A DNA stretch of 64,000 nt, from positions 124,001 to 188,000 of the forward strand of contig NZ_FPAT01000004.1 of NCBI RefSeq assembly GCF_900116555.1, given 5' to 3'. This document shows, in pieces, positions 2,329-61,453 of this stretch. Positions within the stretch are counted from its first letter, which is position 1. Each line of letters starts with the position of its first letter. Source of the stretch: Actinopolyspora lacussalsi subsp. righensis. Its GTDB lineage: Bacteria > Actinomycetota > Actinomycetes > Mycobacteriales > Pseudonocardiaceae. The notes under the pieces are model-generated. The model did no database searches. It worked only from the letters and a program-made list of their open reading frames with translations, and had not been told where the DNA came from. The position numbers were made by a program, and so were the translations under genes.

Positions 2329-2390
2329 GCCGCGCCGCTGGGGTGGCACGGTGCCGCACTCCGACCACCCTGGCAGTCGGCACCGCCGCG

Positions 2391-2486
2391 GGTTCTCCCG
2401 TGCGGCTCTCGCGAGGACGCCGGAGACGTTGTGTAGTACCTACCCGATGTCGCCGGACCCGCGGCGAGAGCCGTGCGAGAGGTTCC
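2391..2486 (+). repeat. Structured hairpin repeat, copy A (subfamily 1)
   Basis: A roughly 96-base element with nested inverted repeats. The outer stem pairs GGCTCTCGC with GCGAGAGCC and continues with G-U-compatible pairs. The middle stem pairs GCCGGAGAC with GTCGCCGG. An apical GTAG-TAC-CTAC hairpin sits inside a conserved loop starting GTTGTGTAG and ending CCCGATG. It lies between the convergent ends of the PPOX gene and a small minus-strand gene. It is nearly identical to the copy at 42178-42273. It may act as a terminator, a structured RNA or a mobile repeat. Confidence 0.8.
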
Positions 2487-2544
2487 GCCACAGCACCACC
2501 CACGATCACCGGGCCGAGGAATTCATCATTCGGGGTTACACAAC

Positions 2545-2584
2545 GCGGGCGTCCCCGGTGCGTGAGTCGGATGCATCGCGAGGC
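2545..2584 (+). repeat. Second dispersed module, copy 1
   Basis: A 40-base block beginning GCGGGCGTCCCCGG and ending GGATGCATCGCGAGGC recurs with three differences, on the opposite strand, at 20633-20672. Both copies lie within loci carrying the hairpin repeat, so it appears to be another module of the same composite element. There is no open frame of note. Confidence 0.7.
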
Positions 2585-2806
2585 CGGGCCGCTCGCCGCG
2601 TAGGTCGCTACTCAAGAGCCGGCCCAACACAGCAAGGCGCCGACTCACGTGCCGGCTACCCGAGCACCCCTACGGGGCCGAGCACTGCCGCGGATTCGAA
2701 GGCGTCCCGCGCTCAACCGGCCTGGGGGTCACCGGGAGCGCGGGACGCGTAATCGACACTACTGATCGGCCGCAGCTGCTGTCGAGTCACCGATGGGCCG
2801 GGTCAC

Positions 2807-14324: not shown

Positions 14325-14362
14325 ACCGCCCTCTGACCCGTCTTCGCGGGTCAGAGGGCGGT
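14325..14362 (-). terminator. Hairpin terminator of first tRNA-Tyr
   Basis: A perfect 16-base stem (ACCGCCCTCTGACCCG, 14325-14340, paired with 14347-14362) closed by TCTTCG. It lies nine bases beyond the 3' end of the tRNA on the minus strand. It could also end the GNAT transcript from the plus strand. A close copy follows the second tRNA gene. Confidence 0.85.
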
Positions 14363-14370
14363 GTTCCCAG

Positions 14371-14454
14371 TGGTGCCGGGTAGAGGATTCGAACCTCTGA
14401 AGCTTGCGCGGCTGATTTACAGTCAGCTCCCTTTGGCCGCTCGGGCAACCCGGC
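14371..14454 (-). tRNA. tRNA-Tyr(GTA), copy 1
   Basis: 84 bases including an encoded CCA end. The acceptor arm is GCCGGGT/ACCCGGC, the anticodon loop CTGTAAA gives anticodon GTA, and there is a long variable arm (class II) and a GGTTCGAATCC T-arm. It is identical over its whole length to the copy 369 bases to the right. Confidence 0.97.
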
Positions 14455-14694: not shown

Positions 14695-14731
14695 ACCGCC
14701 CCCTGCCCGTCTTCGCGGGTCAGAGGGCGGT
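14695..14731 (-). terminator. Hairpin terminator of second tRNA-Tyr
   Basis: A duplicate of the terminator at 14325. The right arm and TCTTCG loop are unchanged, but the left arm reads ACCGCCCCCTGCCCG, so the stem has mismatches and a missing base. It sits nine bases beyond the 3' end of the second tRNA on the minus strand. Confidence 0.75.
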
Positions 14732-14739
14732 GTTCCCAG

Positions 14740-14823
14740 TGGTGCCGGGTAGAGGATTCGAACCTCTGAAGCTTGCGCGGCTGATTTACAGTCAGCTCCC
14801 TTTGGCCGCTCGGGCAACCCGGC
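14740..14823 (-). tRNA. tRNA-Tyr(GTA), copy 2
   Basis: 84 bases with encoded CCA and anticodon GTA, identical to the copy at 14371-14454. Because a terminator hairpin separates them, the two genes may be transcribed from separate promoters. It is divergent from yajQ. Confidence 0.97.
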
Positions 14824-16412: not shown

Positions 16413-16455
16413 GTCGGCTCCGGTATCCCTGCGACATCGATTTCCGGGTGGCGTC

Positions 16456-16522
16456 GATTTCTCGCGAAATCGCCGCGCCAGTACGGCGTTGTGGCCCGGT
16501 GGCGTCGATTTCTCGCGAAATC
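16456..16522 (+). repeat. Dispersed palindrome pair, copy B
   Basis: GATTTCTCGCGAAATC occurs at 16456-16471 and again at 16507-16522, 51 bases apart, in the convergent space between rmlA and htpX. Each is preceded by GTGGCGTC and followed by (G/A)CCGCGCC, so the flanks are part of the repeat unit. The hairpin module follows at 16582. Confidence 0.85.
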
Positions 16523-16581
16523 ACCGCGCCGTTACGACGCAGGGCCGAGCTCCCGCCACCCACGCAGCCCGACCACCCGTG

Positions 16582-16678
16582 GGTTCTCCGGTGCGGCTCT
16601 CGCGAGGACGGCCCCGACGTTGTGTAGGTCGCTACCCGATGTCGGGGCACCCGCAGCGAGAGCCGCACGAGAGGTTCC
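16582..16678 (+). repeat. Structured hairpin repeat, copy B (subfamily 2)
   Basis: A roughly 97-base element of the same family as 2391-2486 but with changed stem bases that keep pairing. The middle stem is GCCCCGAC with GTCGGGGC (GCCGGAGAC/GTCTCCGGC in copy D). At the outer stem the right arm reads CCGCACGAG where copies A, C and D read CCGTGCGAG, turning two G-U pairs into G-C and U-A. The apical part is GTAG-GTCG-CTAC. It lies between convergent genes. Confidence 0.8.
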
Positions 16679-16719
16679 GCCAAGTAAGTGGGTCCGCCCG
16701 CTCGCGCCGGGAACCTCTG

Positions 16720-17595
16720 TCAGTAACGAGTGGGTAGCTTGCGCCCTGCCAGACCCTCCAACCGTCGAACCCTGTCGGAGATGGGCGGGTGGGTCGAGAA
16801 CAACCGCGTCATCCGTTCCCCGGAGCGGAACGGGTTGGCGATCATCAGGTGGGACTCGCTGACCAGCTTCGGCTCGGCCGCGAGCGGGGCCTGCTTGGTC
16901 CCCCGTTCGAGTTTGCGCAGTGCCGAAGCCAGGGCCAGCGGATCTCCCGTCAGCTCGGCCCCCGATGAGTCCGCCTGGTACTCGCGGGAGCGGCTCACGG
17001 CCATCTGGACCACGGCTGCCGCCACCGGCCCGAGCAACGACACCAGCAGCAGCGCGATCAGATTGGGGCGTTCCTCGTCGTCCCCGCCGAAGCTGGCGAA
17101 GATCAGCCCGAAGTTCGCGATGAAGGTGACCGCGCTGGCCAGCGCGCCCGCGACGCTGGAGATCAGGATGTCGCGGTTGTAGACGTGGGAGAGCTCGTGC
17201 CCCAGCACGGCGCGCAGTTCCCGCTCGTCGAGCAGCTCCAGGATCCCGGCGGTGGCACAGACGGCCGCGTTGCGGGGGTTACGCCCCGTGGCGAACGCGT
17301 TGGGCGCCACGGTGGGACTGATGTAGAGCGCGGGCATCGGCTGCTTCGCGGATGTGGCGAGTTCACGCACGATGCGGTACATCGCGGGCTGCTCCGCCTC
17401 GGAAACCGGCCGAGCACGCATCGACCGCAACGCGAGGTTGGCCGAGTTGAAGTACGCGTAGCCGTTCATTCCGAGCGCGATCAGCAGCGCCACGACCATG
17501 CCGGACCGCCCGAACAGCGACCCGAGCAACACGATGAGTGCGCTCATGGCACCGAGCAAGAGCGCCGTTTTTACTCCGTTCCAATGCCTGTGCAA
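16720..17595 (-). CDS. htpX: HtpX membrane zinc metalloprotease
   Basis: About 291 residues, an M48 protease of membrane quality control. It has two N-terminal helices ([20 protein letters not shown] and [19 protein letters not shown]), the zinc motif [13 protein letters not shown] near residue 135, further helices around 155-200 and the third-ligand region [16 protein letters not shown] 17595 is preferred because it follows GGAGGCGGGAG and yields the family's normal N-terminus. An in-frame upstream start would add 26 residues. It cleaves misfolded membrane proteins in the cytoplasmic membrane. Confidence 0.93.
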
Positions 17596-19947: not shown

Positions 19948-20021
19948 ATTACGTAATCTAATCCCTGCTTTTGCAGCATTCAATGCGCCTTCATTGCGGC
20001 GAATACGGCAGAATGTTGCAC
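19948..20021. promoter_or_regulatory. Shared ddaH / lrp control region
   Basis: A 74-base divergent gap. ATTACGTAAT (19948-19957) is a perfect 10-base palindrome abutting the ddaH start codon. The region is AT-richer than its surroundings. By analogy with AsnC/Lrp systems the regulator probably binds here, but the site is a guess from symmetry and position. Confidence 0.4.
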
Positions 20022-20462
20022 ATGGACCCCCTGGATCAACGAATCGTTTCGCAACTGGTCACCGACGCCAGGGCCAGTTACGCGGAGATCGGCGAGGCGG
20101 TGGGACTCTCCGCGCCCGCTGTGAAACGACGTGTGGACAAACTGCTGGACAACGGCGTGCTGCAGGGCTTCACCGCCGTGGTCGACCCGGAAGCGCTCGG
20201 CTGGGGGACCGAGGCCTTCGTGGAAGTGCACTGCCACGGCAACGTGCCCACCGACCGGCTGCTCGCGGGGCTGGAACCGCTGCCGGAGGTGGTTCGCGCC
20301 TACACCGTCTCGGGAGAGGCGGACGCGATCGTGCACCTGCGTGCGGCCGACATCCACCACCTCGAAACCGCGCTGGAACGGCTGCGTGCGGTCGAGTTCA
20401 TCAACCGGACCGTTTCCACCGTCGTGCTGTCCCGGTTACTCGACAGACCACCCCAGGCATAG
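20022..20462 (+). CDS. Lrp/AsnC family transcriptional regulator
   Basis: 146 residues. An N-terminal helix-turn-helix (LDQRIVSQLVTDARASYAEI, then VGLSAPAVKRRVDKLLDNGV) is followed by a RAM/AsnC ligand-binding domain (AFVEVHCHG, YTVSGEADAIVHL). It likely senses an amino acid and controls the divergent ddaH gene and itself. ATG 20022 gives the canonical start MDPLDQRI; ATG 20013 is three codons earlier. Confidence 0.92.
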   Translation: MDPLDQRIVSQLVTDARASYAEIGEAVGLSAPAVKRRVDKLLDNGVLQGFTAVVDPEALGWGTEAFVEVHCHGNVPTDRLLAGLEPLPEVVRAYTVSGEADAIVHLRAADIHHLETALERLRAVEFINRTVSTVVLSRLLDRPPQA

Positions 20463-20502
20463 AACTGTGCTCGGCGTGCGGGGCGTAGCTGGTTGAAGTG
20501 GC

Positions 20503-20599
20503 GGAACCTCTCGCACGGCTCTCGCTGCGGGTGCCCCGACATCGGGTAGCGACCTACACAACGTCGGGACCGTCCTCGCGAGAGCCGCACGGGAGAACC
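20503..20599 (-). repeat. Structured hairpin repeat, copy C (subfamily 2)
   Basis: Minus-strand copy of the hairpin repeat, just downstream of the Lrp gene. Read on the minus strand it has outer arms GGCTCTCGC/GCGAGAGCC, a middle stem GGTCCCGAC/GTCGGGGC (one G-U pair) and apical GTAG-GTCG-CTAC, matching copy B. It is in the convergent space between the Lrp gene and the sunset-domain gene. Confidence 0.8.
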
Positions 20600-20632
20600 C
20601 GCGGGTGCTCGGGCTGCGTGGGTGGCGGTTCG

Positions 20633-20672: not shown

Positions 20673-20762
20673 GCTGCGCGAGCCGCATGGTCGCGTCCCG
20701 ACGGCGGCTGCGGGATGGTTGGAGCGCGGCCCTGCCCGACGGCCTTCTCCCAGCGGCCCCGC

Positions 20763-20778
20763 GATTTCGCGAGAAATT
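20763..20778 (-). repeat. Dispersed palindrome, copy C
   Basis: GATTTCGCGAGAAATT, the reverse complement of the family palindrome with one end base changed. A single copy at this locus, about 55 bases before the 3' end of the sunset-domain gene. Confidence 0.7.
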
Positions 20779-20832
20779 TACGCAGCACGGGGCCACTCCA
20801 CCGCACAGCCAATCGGACACCGCACGGGCCGT

Positions 20833-32084: not shown

Positions 32085-34804
32085 GCGACACCCCCATCGG
32101 TGCCGGTGTGGCCGTTGCCGTTCGGACCGTGCCCGGCGGCACCGAGACCGCCCGCGCCGTGACCGTTGGCAGCGTCGTTGTGACCGTTGGCAGCGTCGCT
32201 GTGACCATTGGCAGCGTCGTTGTGACCATTGGCGCCGTGGCCGTTGGTCACCGCCGCCGAGACCGCCTCCCCGGCCGCGGTTTCATCCGGTTCCGGGCTT
32301 TTCGGTCCACCACCGGGCGGGGGCAGTGGACCGGCCGCGAGGCCGACCACCGTGCCGTGCCCAGCCCCGAGCACGCTCCGGACCTTGGCCGGTCCCGAGT
32401 TGCCCGGCAACCAGACCACGCCGTCCGGCATCTCGACGATCTCGGACTCCAGCGCGACGGTCCCCCGCTCGGTGCTGACGCGGACCGGCTGGTGCGGTTC
32501 GATGCCGAGCCGCCGCGAGGTGTCCCGGGAGATCCGCGCCACGGGTGGCCGGGCCGTACCCGCGAGATTCGGTTCGTCGTGCTGCATCGAACCGTTGTCC
32601 AGCAGGTGCCGCCAGCTCGCCAGCAGCGCTTTGTCCCCGACCGGTTCGTCGACCGGCTCGGCCGGTATGTCCGGTGGCTTCGGCCGGGCTCCGGGATTCG
32701 CACCCAACCGTTGGATCTCGGCGGCCACCGCCGCCGGGGTCTGGGTGAACAGGTCCACGTCCATCTCCACCGCGAGGGTGTCCAGCACCCGGCAGTCCGG
32801 CAGCGCGCCGGTGCCCTCGATGGTGATCTCGAACTCGCGGGCACGGCCCTCCCAGTTGAGGAACGTCCCGGACTTCTCGACCGTGGGCGCGATGGGAAGC
32901 ACCACGTCGGCGTGCTCGGTCACGCCGGAAGGGCGCAGTTCGAGGCTGACGACGAATCCGGCCGACCGGAGCGCGCGGCGCGCCTGCTCGGGATCCGGCA
33001 GATCGTCGGGATCGACCCCGCCGACCAGCAGGCCGGACAGCTCACCGGACTCCGCCGCGGCGAGGATGCCGTCGAGCTCCCGGCCGGGGATGCTGGGCAG
33101 GCTGCCCTCCGGGACACCCCATGCCCGCTCGATCCCCGAGCGCACCACCGAGTCGGAGACGGGTCGGCCGTTGGGAAGCAGCGTCGGGAGCGTCCCCGCC
33201 TCCACCGCACCGCGTTCCCCGGCACGGCGCGGGATCCAGGCGATGCCCGCGCCGGTGCGTTCGGCCACCCGCATCGCTGCGGTGTAGACCCCGGAAACCT
33301 GGGAGCACCGCTCGCCCAGCAGCAGGACGGCACCCGGTTCGGACAGCGCCTGTTCCACTTCGGGCGGAAGTTCGTACAGCGCGGCGGCCTCACCGCCCGG
33401 CAGGCAGGGCAGCAGTCCCCCGCTGTGGATGGGGCTGCCGGAGTCGACGATGTCGGTGGTCTTCTCCACACCGGGCGAGTCCCACTGTCCGAGGTGGAAC
33501 ACCCTGGTGCTCCCGTCGCGGGCGGCCTTGCGCAACCGGAGGAAGACGATGGGCGACTCCTCCTCGGGCTCGAAGGCCACGCACAGCACCGTGGGGGCCG
33601 CTTCCAGCGAGGAGTAGCTGACGCCGTCCTCCGGCCCGGTTCCGACCACCGAGGCACCCAGGAAGTCGAGCTCCTCGGTGGAGTGCGGCCTGGCGCGGTG
33701 ATCGATGTCGTTGGTGCCCAGCGCCATCCGGGCGAACTTCCCGTAGGCGTAGGCGTCCTCACGGGTGAGCCTGCCTCCGGGCAGCACCCCGACGCCGCCC
33801 GAGTCGCGCGCGGTGAGCAGCCCGTCCGCCGCCCGGCGCAGCGCCTCGGTCCAGGAGGTCTCCCGCAGCTCACCCGACTCCGCGTCCCGCACCATCGGGC
33901 GGGTGAGCCGGTCGCTGGCGGTCGCGTACCGGAACGCGAAGCGCCCCTTGTCGCAGTTCCACTCCTCGTTGACCTCGGGGTCCTCACCCGCCAGCCTGCG
34001 CATCACCTTGCCGCGGCGCCAGTCGGTGCGCTGCGAGCAGCCCGAGGCGCAGTGCTCGCAGACACCCGGGGTGGACACGAGGTCGAACGGGCGGGAGCGG
34101 AATCGGTAAGCCGCGCTGGTGAGCGCTCCCACTGGGCAGATCTGAATGGTGTTGCCGGAGAAATAGGACTGGAACGGCTGCTGCTCGCCGATGCCGATCT
34201 GCTGCGTGGCGCCGCGTTCGAGCAGTTCGATGAACGGGTCACCGGCGATCTGCTTGGAGAACCTGGTGCAGCGCTGGCAGAGCACACAGCGCTCCCGATC
34301 CAGCAGGATCTGCGAGGAGATCGAGACGGGTTTGGCGAAGGTGCGCTTCTTGTCCACGAAACGCGACTCGCTGCGCCCGTGCTTGAGCGCCTGGTTCTGC
34401 AGCGGGCACTCCCCGCCCTTGTCGCAGACGGGGCAGTCCAGCGGGTGGTTGATCAGCAGCAGCTCCATCACACCCTGCTGGGCCTTGTCGGCCACCTGCG
34501 AGGTCTGCTGGGTGTTGACCACCATCCCGTCGGCCACCGCCGTGGTGCAGGAGGCCGCGGGTTTGGGCATCGGTTTGCCGTTGACCTCGACCTCGACCAG
34601 GCACTGCCTGCAGGCACCCGCCGGGTCGAGCAGCGGGTGGTCGCAGAACCGGGGAATCACGATGCCCAGCCGCTCGGCGGTACGGATCACCAGCTCGCCC
34701 TTCGGGGCGTCGACCTCGATACCGTCGATGGTCAGCCGGACGTGCCCTTCCGGTACCGGACGGGACTGCGCGGTGTCGTTTCCGGAAGCGGATGCCACCG
34801 TCAT
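32081..34804 (-). CDS. nuoG: NADH-quinone oxidoreductase subunit G with Asn-Gly-His repeats
   Basis: 907 residues, the iron-sulphur-rich subunit of the peripheral arm. Cluster motifs are [17 protein letters not shown] (N1b), [17 protein letters not shown] (N5, with His ligand), [10 protein letters not shown] (N4) and CEHCASGC (N7-type). A molybdopterin-oxidoreductase-like domain follows. The C-terminus carries about four NGHxDAA-like units coded by a 21-base tandem repeat. ATG 34804 overlaps the nuoF stop (ATGA). About 100 residues longer than typical mycobacterial NuoG. Confidence 0.96.
32160..32245. repeat. 21-base tandem repeat within nuoG
   Basis: About four units of the form TGACC(G/A)TTGGCAGCGTCG(T/C)(T/C)G in the coding region of the NuoG tail. 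Each 21-base unit encodes seven residues, NGHNDAA with variants. Such repeats are prone to unit-number change without a frame shift. Confidence 0.8.
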
Positions 34805-41777: not shown

Positions 41778-42075
41778 GGTGCTCCTTGTCCAGCCTTGCT
41801 GTTCGGATCGACGTCGTTCCCCTCCGATGATCCCGGCGGAACACGCCGCCGCACCGCCCGAGCGACATCGGCGACCTTGTGAATAAGTTCACTAACGAGT
41901 CTAGGACGGACATCCCGCGCGATCGAGACATCGCGAGCGAAAGAAACTCACGGCCGCGGCGGAAGCAGCGCGGGAGGCACGAACGCGGGCAGGCACGGAA
42001 CACGGCATCGTCCGCCCGAAACAGTGACGGTCACTGCTTCCTTCGGGGGATCCGAGTACGCCGTTCGGGGGTGTC

Positions 42076-42091
42076 GATTTCTCGCGAAATC
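42076..42091 (+). repeat. Dispersed palindrome, copy D
   Basis: GATTTCTCGCGAAATC, a single copy. The following 60 bases match the sequence after the second palindrome of copy A almost base for base. Located between menG and the MenJ-like gene, about 300 bases before the start of the latter. Confidence 0.8.
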
Positions 42092-42177
42092 GCCGCGCCG
42101 CTGGGGTGGCACGGTGCCGCACTCCGACCACCCTCGCAGGCCGAACTCCAGCCACCTACGCAATCGGCACCGCCGCG

Positions 42178-42273
42178 GGTTCTCCCGTGCGGCTCTCGCG
42201 AGGACGCCGGAGACGTTGTGTGGTACCTACCCGATGTCTCCGGCCCCGCGGCGAGAGCCGTGCGAGAGGTTCC
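42178..42273 (+). repeat. Structured hairpin repeat, copy D (subfamily 1)
   Basis: Nearly identical to copy A, but with a fully paired middle stem GCCGGAGAC/GTCTCCGGC (copy A has one A-G mismatch and one end mismatch). The apical part is GTGG-TAC-CTAC. It lies in the intergenic region after menG, opposite to menG's direction. Confidence 0.8.
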
Positions 42274-42314
42274 GCCGAGTGAGCAGTCGAAGCAACCCGA
42301 CCGGAAGAGTTCGA

Positions 42315-43004
42315 TCAGTAAGGTTTGCGGGCGTGGTGCAGGGCTACGATTCCTCCGGTGAGATCCCGCCAGGCCACCTCGGACCAGCCGGAGCGGGCGA
42401 TCGTAGCGGCGAGCTCCCGCTGATCGGGCCAGGCGAGGATCGACTCGGCCAGATAGACGTAGGCGTCCGGATTGCTGGCGACGGTCCGTGCGACCGGCGG
42501 GACCGCGCGCAACGCGAGGTTGCGATAGGCAGCGCGCAACGGCCTGTTGGTGGGGGTGGAGAACTCGCAGATCACCAGCCTGCCACCGGGACGGACCACG
42601 CGGGCCATCTCCCGCAGCCCGGCCTCGGTGTCGGCCAGGTTCCGCAGTCCGAACAACATGGCGACTCCGTCGAAAGCACCATCGGCGAACGGGAGCCGCA
42701 GCGCGTCGGCGGCCACCATCGACAGCTCCCGGTGCTCCCCGGCCGCGAGCATCCCCAGTGAGAAGTCGGCGGCCACGCAGTACGCACCACTCCGGGAGAA
42801 CTCGGCGGTGGAGACGCCGGTGCCGGCGGCCAGATCCAGGATCCGCTCCTCGGGAGCCGGAGCGAGCGCCCGACGGGTGGCGTCCCGCCAGTGGCGGTCG
42901 AGCCCGAAGGAGAGCACCGTGTTGGTGCGGTCGTAGCCACGGGCGACGCCGTCGAACATCGCCGCTACCGCACGGGGATTCCTGTCCAGGCCGGCTCGAG
43001 ACAC
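42315..43004 (-). CDS. menG: Demethylmenaquinone methyltransferase
   Basis: 229 residues of the UbiE/MenG family. It methylates demethylmenaquinone with SAM, the last step of menaquinone synthesis. It has [18 protein letters not shown], the SAM loop [31 protein letters not shown], and YLAESI near the C-terminus. GTG 43004 start. It shares orientation with the MenJ-like gene and nuo, but a 537-base gap with repeat copy D intervenes. Confidence 0.94.
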
Positions 43005-43060
43005 ACCCGCACTTTACTAGTAGGAGTCGGCGACCCGGTTTCCGCAGGTGTCCACTCGGC

Positions 43061-43252
43061 GGAACCTCTCGCACGGCGGTGCCGAGTGCGTGCATGGCTG
43101 GGATTCGGCACGCGTACGTGGTCGGAGTTCGGCTCTGCGTAACAACGGCCCGGCGATTTCGTGGGAAATCGACGGTAACCGGGCCGCGTGGTGGTGACCG
43201 CTATCCGACCCGGTGCCGCCGCACCGTGGGACCGGCGATTTCGTGGGAAATC
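43061..43252 (-). repeat. Repeat copy E, hairpin-deleted, with palindrome pair
   Basis: Read on the minus strand, this locus has two palindromes of a variant form (plus-strand GATTTCGTGGGAAATC at 43155-43170 and 43237-43252), then spacer sequence similar to copy D, then only the final arm of the hairpin (plus-strand 43061-43076). The join is at GGCACCGCCG/TGCGAGAGG, where the complete copies carry the hairpin body. It lies in the divergent gap between menG and the phosphatase gene. Confidence 0.7.
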
Positions 43253-43465
43253 GACGCCGTTGCCCCCGAAAGCGGTACCGCGTCCCGGGTTGAGCGATTA
43301 GAATCCCTCTCGGCCGATCGGGCGTGGCACGCACTGCGTGTGGGCCAGTCGGCCCGGACCACCCGCACCGCTCCGTACGCCACCCGGGATTCTTGACCGG
43401 AGCATCGCCGCGCGTCCACACGCAATTGGTCTGCCGGTTACCCATAGCGACCACAATGGTGCGGT

Positions 43466-58926: not shown

Positions 58927-58994
58927 GATTTCTCGAGAAATTGACGCCGACCGCACTGCCACGCCTGGGCGCACCGTCGATTTCCCGAGAAATC
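58927..58994. repeat. Dispersed palindrome pair, copy F
   Basis: GATTTCTCGAGAAATT (58927-58942) and GATTTCCCGAGAAATC (58979-58994), 52 bases apart. The first contains a perfect TTTCTCGAGAAA. The hairpin module is absent from this locus. It lies between the lipoprotein gene and the MFS gene. Confidence 0.75.
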
Positions 58995-59034
58995 GACGGT
59001 GCCGTGCCGGAAAGGGGACCGCGGTCCCGGAAAA

Positions 59035-60875: not shown

Positions 60876-61453
60876 GTAGGCCCCGCGCACGCGGGGATAG
60901 ACCCTCACTCGATCACTCTCCAAGGTAAGTAAGAACGTAGGCCCCGCGCACGCGGGGATAGACCCTCGTGCCACCGTGTTTCGGTGGGCATCTCGCCGTA
61001 GGCCCCGCGCACGCGGGGATAGACCGCGCTCACGCTCAGCCTCGTCCTCCGCACGCTCGTAGGCCCCGCGCACGCGGGGATAGACCACAGGTCTGTTCTG
61101 CCTGACGCGGCTGCGGCGGCGTAGGCCCCGCGCACGCGGGGATAGACCGCTTGAGCAGTACCAAGCCGAAGTCGCCGACGTGTAGGCCCCGCGCACGCGG
61201 GGATAGACCCCGGGCGTGCGGCTTGTCGAGCAGCCGGTTGATGTAGGCCCCGCGCACGCGGGGATAGACCCGTGATCCACCTGTTTTGTTCGTGCATGAG
61301 TTCGTAGGCCCCGCGCACGCGGGGATAGACCACGGAGCCTGTCGTTTTCGGTGGGCACTCATAAGTAGGCCCCGCGCACGCGGGGATGGACCTACGTCAG
61401 TCAGGGGTATTTCCGGATTGACACCGTAGGCCCCTCGGGAGTGCTCGGGATCA
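60876..61453 (+). CRISPR. CRISPR array, type I-E-like repeats, no cas genes in window
   Basis: Nine 28-base repeats start at 60876, 60937, 60998, 61059, 61121, 61182, 61243, 61304 and 61365. They begin GTAGGCCCCGCG and end CGCGGGGATAGACC, with an internal CCCCGCG/CGCGGGG hairpin. The ninth has one change (GATGGACC). A truncated tenth copy begins exactly in register at 61426. Spacers are 33 bases, except 34 for the fourth. Repeat form and orientation match the I-E type, in which the leader is on the GTAGG side. No cas gene is present, so interference genes must lie elsewhere or be absent. Confidence 0.95.

Follow-up and report, generated by a model that had tools for sequence, protein, structure and literature searches.

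The window, a stretch of 64,000 nucleotides from Actinopolyspora lacussalsi subsp. righensis, contains four copies of a dispersed hairpin, here termed F1, at the places and on the strands given for them in the original prediction. With a covariance model built from 32 aligned copies (model R1) they lie at 2384..2490 on the plus strand (copy A, 112.2 bits), at 16575..16682 on the plus strand (copy B, 120.6 bits), at 20499..20606 on the minus strand (copy C, 125.9 bits) and at 42171..42277 on the plus strand (copy D, 108.7 bits). The 3' ends of copies B, C and D face the stop codon of an opposite-strand gene, hereafter the anchor gene, at 37, 36 and 37 nt, respectively. These genes encode a peptidase M48 (16720..17547, minus strand, stop codon 16720-16722; Pfam PF01435, 124.8 bits), an Lrp/AsnC-type regulator (20013..20462, plus strand; PF13404 and PF01037) and a UbiE-type methyltransferase (42315..42959, minus strand; PF01209, 173.4 bits). 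Copy A is an exception to this spacing because no opposite-strand gene is called on its 3' side, the nearest called gene being on the same strand and 810 nt off. The unit of ~97 nt originally described corresponds to the hairpin itself, but the conserved unit is longer, with ~35-55 nt added on the 5' side and ~30 nt on the 3' side. Copy B has a conserved 5' flank (16530..16574, plus strand, borders approximate), which includes a degenerate 24-nt motif with the consensus CCGAACTCCGACCACCCTCGCAGT, and a C/A-rich, T-poor 3' tail (16683..16716, plus strand) that lies between the hairpin and the opposing stop codon. A weak copy of a second hairpin family, F2, which scores 29.4 bits with R1, is located at 2551..2657 on the plus strand. 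At positions 43053-43077, 25 nt repeat the 3' end of copy D and the next bases perfectly in inverted orientation, likely as a remnant.

The F1 consensus is a single long nested hairpin of 108 positions and 39 pairs. The exchanges from which a structure was first proposed are all present in the window copies: the middle stem reads GCCGGAGAC/GTCTCCGGC in copy D, GCCCCGAC/GTCGGGGC in copy B and GTCCCGAC/GTCGGGGC in copy C, and the outer stem has U.G and G.U pairs in copies A, C and D versus U-A and G-C in copy B. The excess of compensatory changes holds in more copies and the arms remain paired. Among 105 copies from the same genome (G000), 98.1% of 4029 pair cells are paired and double changes affect 12 of the 39 pairs, with none of 500 shuffles as high by any of five measures; among 59 copies from several genera, 94.6% of 2236 pair cells are paired, double changes affect 27 of the 39 pairs and the covariation score is 0.481, against 0.131 for shuffled alignments (0/500) and 0.07-0.12 when columns are slid by 1-3, though all these figures favor pairing because the alignments were fitted to the model's structure. 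Covariation above both shuffled and slid controls, which we take as the mark of a structured RNA, was found. In G021, a genome of another genus, the best 30 copies have stems of several kinds that are mostly unlike those of Actinopolyspora, yet are paired. Near-invariant nodes, kept in 85-100% of rows, are seen at the base (GCGGGTTCTC/GAGGTTCCGC) and in the middle (GAGGAC/CCCGCAG) of the hairpin, and in the 59 cross-genus copies the GTAG-CTAC tip is kept less strictly than these two. The G.U, U.U, U.G triplet of the base persists across genera, in 93-100% of copies. Column information indicates conservation to about -55 on the 5' side and fades at about +30 on the 3' side. The + strand of copy A, i.e. 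the strand on which the hairpin is modeled, folds with -65.6 kcal/mol (z -6.8), and none of 200 shuffles was as low. The structure of F1 is real: it is a nested hairpin with covarying stems and near-fixed nodes, and the covariation tests on the enlarged copy sets support the original proposal of selection on an RNA or hairpin-DNA structure.

Covariance-model searches of the genome and its relatives recovered a large family, with ~139 copies in the own genome; its spread through the taxonomic family, its spacing to stop codons and its turnover in shared sites had been overlooked in the original prediction. In G000 (4.92 Mb) there are 139 matches at E<=0.001 among 150 candidates scored, and a few further copies may exist because the weakest match still has 41 bits. 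A single search of nine congeneric genomes gave 3 copies in G006 and at least 93 in each of the eight others; G021 has 108 matches, and G141, which belongs to a third genus, has at least 149 from 150 candidates scored. A scan of the taxonomic family with a model built from two genera (R2), at E<=1e-5 and with at most 15 candidates scored per genome, detected F1 in 67 genomes out of 249; these carriers represent 14 of the 46 genera, two of the 14 being the model's own. The pattern of the 3' arm recurs in at least 79 stretches, 78 of them from Actinopolyspora mzabensis, A. alba and A. xinjiangensis and one from Planotetraspora. A viral origin was rejected, with the exact 3'-arm pattern being absent from the viral contig collection. 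Membership in a known Rfam family was likewise rejected, as none reached threshold: with Rfam 15 the whole window yields two tRNAs and nothing else at the gathering score, and six copy-bearing loci searched at E<=5 yield five matches, four of them to miRNA precursors, all far under threshold. Among the papers listed by searches of the open full-text literature we recognized none that describes F1; the accessible text of PMC3733652, PMC12306157, PMC13289151, PMC2817692 and PMC6060812 deals with REP-type or other hairpins behind genes and carries no mention of F1 or its genus.

Genes were called with a purpose-written codon-usage gene finder, and all 105 G000 copies lie clear of the called genes. 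With the hairpin strand as reference, the neighbors on the 5' and 3' sides are oriented same/opposite at 54 copies, making this convergent context the commonest, opposite/opposite at 30, same/same at 15, opposite/same at 5 and unknown/opposite at one; an opposing gene end is thus present on the 3' side of 85 of the 105. The distance from the 3' end of the hairpin to the opposing stop codon has a median of 36 nt (quartiles 34 and 39) and lies between 25 and 50 nt in 78 of these 85 copies, i.e. in 78 of 105 overall. Of the 84 among these that have both neighbors placed, 77 fall in this interval, as against 8.6 expected from uniform placement in the same spacers and a maximum of 23 in 20,000 simulated runs. 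By comparison, where a same-strand gene precedes the hairpin, its stop codon falls in the 25-50 nt interval in one of 69 copies versus 7.6 expected. This address recurs elsewhere, with the opposing stop at 25-50 nt in 20 of 21 cases among the best 30 copies of the complete genome G003, 17 of 27 among the best 30 of G021, 17 of 21 among the best 30 of G141 and seven of eight at nine other loci. Ten anchor proteins tested are unrelated and received ten different Pfam assignments: M48 peptidase, UbiE methyltransferase, AsnC regulator, DUF2252, a G5/transglycosylase protein, ThiF, a sodium symporter, an FAD-binding protein, a baeRF protein and an ABC-2 permease. The remaining 20 of the 105 copies are followed by a gene in their own orientation; the start codon of such a neighbor is at 38-60 nt in 8/20 cases in G000, 3/9 in G003, 1/3 in G021 and 3/9 in G141, and from this spacing the tail of the unit may abut a gene edge generally.

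The composition of the adjoining segments is skewed. Positions +1 to +34 of 104 G000 copies have C 0.39, A 0.26, G 0.27 and T 0.09, and the same segment in G021 has C 0.473 and G 0.184 on the + strand; positions -60 to -1 in G000 have C 0.452 and G 0.261 on the + strand, and the 5' flank in G141 has C 0.318 and G 0.315, i.e. no C excess. On the + strand C exceeds G in the 3' tail of all three sets, and in the 5' flank of G000, less in that of G021 and not in that of G141. Stretches with at least five T in nine positions behind the hairpin were found on the + strand at none of 30 G021 copies, 30 G141 copies and eight other loci, and in gene sense at 0/30, 5/30 and 2/8, respectively; an intrinsic terminator was rejected on the absence of a U-tract from most copies in these sets. 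Also rejected was an intrinsic-terminator hairpin on the 5' side in the + direction, which was seen at 6/30 G141, 1/30 G021, 1/8 other and 4/104 G000 copies. Smaller repeats accompany F1 in places. Eight tandem units of the 24-nt motif lie directly 5' of a copy at 2704-2899 of locus L055, and single units of this motif are also found where no F1 adjoins, at 3-11 nt from opposing stops. A palindrome, TCAGCGGCGRAGCCGCTGA, is conserved ~25-50 nt from the hairpin on its 5' side in all ten G141 copies shown (L366-L383) and occurs in one of ten from G021 (L334). The spacers also hold small GATTTCTCGCGAAATC-type palindromes, at most two in each and often 5' of F1; in the window they lie at 2247-2354, 16443-16548, 20755-20782, 42067-42097, 43147-43256 and 58971-58998, and each of three stretches of 335-400 kb has 16 to 23.

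Sites are mostly common to strains, and the sequence within them is swapped, deleted or replaced by F2. For 20 of the best 30 G003 copies (as read from the table), both flanks and their arrangement agree with those of a copy among the 105 from G000; a further copy has matching flanks with the opposite orientation. In orthologous stretches of 335-400 kb, the locatable G000 sites also carry F1 in 18 of 19 cases in G041, a genome of the same species, 13 of 16 in G007 and 15 of 19 in G004. Same-strand F1 orthologs of G000 and G041 have a mean identity of only 92.4%, against 94-99% for their flanks and 86.6% for F1 paralogs. The site of copy C has F1 in G000 and G007, and F2 in G041. At L065 and L068, G007 is without the hairpin body and retains part of one arm. 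At the M48 gene the spacer in G006 is shorter than 30 nt and has no hairpin, and G001, as we read the alignment, has a weaker F1 (58.9 bits) at the stop of the other gene, ~35 nt off. An in-place inversion of F1 at L063 was rejected, the alignment there indicating that one copy was lost and another gained at the stop of the other gene. F2 is a different hairpin, with the tip GTAG-RTCG-CTAC in most copies, and ten of its 12 full copies lie 30-45 nt from an opposing stop. A comparison of 771 gene-end pairs showed 96 replaced, 462 conserved, 146 intermediate and 67 with a differing coding end; breakpoints of the 96 replaced ends are mostly at -6 to +7, an interval to be read with the caveat that the rule used favors near breakpoints and that the step from coding to neutral sequence by itself lowers identity there. 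For this reason replacement beginning exactly at the stop codon was dropped as a general rule and is claimed for single sites, such as that of copy C.

To our knowledge, how transcripts end in high-GC actinobacteria, which have few classical terminators, and how convergent genes avoid silencing each other are open questions. F1 has the appearance of a structural punctuation mark for gene ends that has so far gone undescribed, because the hairpin is dispersed more than 100 times, usually sits ~36 nt from the ends of opposite-strand genes and has stems that vary yet stay paired. The explanation that we tentatively put first is that it might be a strand-specific hairpin at the 3' boundaries of genes, perhaps blocking transcription toward the opposing gene. 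The + strand would act as nascent RNA, arising from read-through of the convergent neighbor or from antisense transcription; the hairpin would stall RNA polymerase, or a putative protein would bind its nodes; and transcription would stop at the hairpin, possibly via Rho acting on the C-rich flanks, before entering the 3' end of the opposing gene. If transcription indeed ended there, the hairpin would be a barrier to antisense transcription, not the terminator of the adjoining gene. This proposal is favored by the spacing and its recurrence in G003, G021, G141 and the other loci, by the prevalence of the convergent context, by the diversity of anchor proteins, by the covariation of the paired stems, by the like spacing of F2 as a second hairpin family, and by the excess of C over G on the + strand (5' flank in G000, 3' tail in G021). 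It fits less well with the lack of this excess in the 5' flank of G141, with the ten of 27 opposing stops in G021 outside 25-50 nt and with the 20 copies followed by a gene in the same orientation. Furthermore, the + strand belongs to no gene transcript at 30 of the 105 copies because these are flanked by tandem genes of the other strand.

The evidence on strand is uneven. The better folding of the + strand of copy A agrees with the barrier proposal, as do the 59 cross-genus copies, which outside wobble-majority columns have 72 G.U versus 11 A.C cells (18 versus 10 pair types), a surplus that leans upward because the alignment was fitted to a + strand model. Against it, the asymmetry is weak within Actinopolyspora, with 27 G.U versus 20 A.C cells (13 versus 13 types) in the 105 own-genome copies and 19 versus 13 (12 versus 11 types) in 49 copies from three other genomes of the genus; a strand call from single-side changes within Actinopolyspora was accordingly dropped. 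With low confidence, a role for the + strand is somewhat more likely than one for the gene-sense strand. A more ambitious form of the proposal, which we regard as conceivable but doubtful, is that F1 would be a family-wide undescribed structured RNA that punctuates the 3' ends of ~100 genes per genome in a strand-specific way. In this form a dedicated, putative RNA-binding factor would read the nodes (GUU/GUU at the base, GAGGAC/CCCGCAG in the middle and GUAG-CUAC at the tip), and at least two hairpin families would be interchangeable in one slot.

A functional gene-sense strand, the first of the rival readings, is rather unlikely. At all anchored copies this strand lies within the 3' untranslated region of the anchor gene, so F1 could be an element of that region at an ordinary distance behind the stop codon, shielding the 3' end of the mRNA from exonucleases or acting as a terminator without a U-tract. 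The anchor is then simply the gene's own stop, which lies ~36 nt off whether the context is convergent or tandem, and the gene-sense strand of copy A is also stable (-53.0 kcal/mol, z -3.9). Precedents in the accessible text of the respective papers are GC-rich hairpins without a U-tract, including REP, at RNA 3' ends in E. coli (PMC13289151) and an enrichment of inverted repeats just behind stop codons (PMC6060812). The former text also describes a C-rich, G-poor neighborhood of a GC-rich hairpin without a U-tract near a gene end (PMC13289151). F1 resembles Rho-dependent terminators and 3'-end stabilizing hairpins in being GC-rich and U-tract-less and, to a degree that varies between genomes, in its C-rich surroundings, but differs from them in being a dispersed homologous family whose C-rich side is opposite to the strand of the anchor gene. 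Speaking against the gene-sense reading, the cross-genus pairing is better on the other strand, the wobble pairs G.U and U.G that are conserved there read as A.C mismatches in gene sense, and U-rich stretches are as scarce in this direction as given above.

It is similarly unlikely, and if anything a shade more so, that F1 belongs chiefly with non-autonomous mobile or gene-converting repeats of the MITE/REPIN type, with a single-stranded DNA hairpin recognized by a putative enzyme that inserts it behind stop codons and with any function for the host incidental. The high copy number favors this, as do the presence, absence and opposite-strand copies at orthologous places with flanks mostly 90-99% identical, and the mean identity of G000/G041 orthologs of only 92.4%, against 86.6% for paralogs. 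The same can be said of G006, which has so few copies among its congeners and a short, hairpin-free M48 spacer, and of G002, in which ten copies score an equal 103 bits, suggesting recent spread or homogenization in a genome without a Y1 transposase. With regard to a MITE, long inverted arms are present and the degenerate 24-nt direct motif lies in the flanks. On the other side, sites are mostly shared between genomes, no target-site duplication was defined, and the stems diverge between genera yet stay paired, as a passive transposon end need not. The enzyme search covered the Y1 (REP/IS200-type) transposase family PF01797 alone, which is present in ten of 13 genomes and absent from G002, G008 and G021, each with at least 93 copies; because it is missing from these copy-rich genomes a RAYT system is disfavored, and a REP/RAYT origin was rejected on this distribution. 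REP-type repeats are described in the accessible text of PMC2817692 as palindromic with more than 100 copies per genome, and in that of PMC3733652 as 20-40 bp long, mostly between convergent or co-directional genes and with G.T pairs in their stems. F1 is likewise palindromic, present in more than 100 copies per genome, sited downstream of coding regions, found mostly where genes are convergent or co-directional and endowed with G.T pairs in its stems, but is unlike REP in its ~97 nt of nested stems, its usual ~36-nt spacing from an opposite-strand stop codon, and its stems that are rewritten between genera around near-fixed nodes. F1 might work like 3'-end hairpins of the REP kind but lacks two of the three REP features tested. 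That stems are rewritten between genera while pairing, nodes and address are kept suggests that such repeats need not be mere selfish debris.

A role as a chromosome-organization or nucleoid site, in which the hairpin would be extruded in duplex DNA and copies would lie around the origin and avoid the terminus, appears very improbable. In G003 (dnaA at 0.8 kb) only three of 135 copies lie in 1.48-3.23 Mb (binomial p 9e-20, borders picked post hoc), and in G021 none of 106 in 2.25-2.75 Mb. Orientation follows the replichore both in G003 (right 44 minus/16 plus, left 45 plus/27 minus) and in G021 (40/14 and 42/10). This orientation might, however, follow from anchor genes that are co-directional with replication; G141 thins only about twofold (17 of at least 149 copies in 2.5-4.0 Mb, in coordinates without a dnaA reference), and the 36-nt spacing is left unexplained. 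Least probable of all is an origin of the compensatory changes by mutation alone, through template switching in a quasipalindrome without selection: the 105 copies do have 116 cells with a different Watson-Crick pair versus 47 with a one-side G.U or A.C and 35 with other mismatches, as template correction predicts, but such correction would perfect imperfect pairs, yet the G.U, U.U, U.G base triplet persists across genera, and the nodes are conserved in sequence.

F1 is a hairpin class, present in 14 of the 46 genera examined, with a preferred stop-codon address and with nodes and stems that can be mutated singly, and natural swaps between same-species genomes, as at copy C with flanks 96-98% identical, are ready-made comparisons. 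Several other known systems bear on its classification. Integron attC sites are imperfect palindromes that fold on one strand and lie just behind stop codons; F1, in contrast, consists of single dispersed copies without cassette arrays. ERIC and IRU elements of enterobacteria are imperfect palindromes as well, and they belong to a different phylum; cross-genus covariation, conserved nodes and stop spacing are what F1 displays. We know of no architecture that the pneumococcal BOX and RUP elements have in common with F1. The accessible text of PMC3049150 presents the latter two as small interspersed repeats, and that of PMC2759123 presents ERIC, IRU and RU as small mobile sequences forming intergenic units of 103-168 bp.

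The window has further repeats of its own. Positions 60876-61395 are by appearance a CRISPR-like array, with 28-nt repeats, GTAGGCCCCGCGCACGCGGGGATAGACC, at 61-nt spacing. Tandem 21-nt units are found at 32134-32238, where 42-nt windows are 69-90% alike. An exact direct repeat of 118 nt at 14337-14454 and 14706-14823, its copies 369 nt apart, holds two minus-strand tRNA genes with equal scores.
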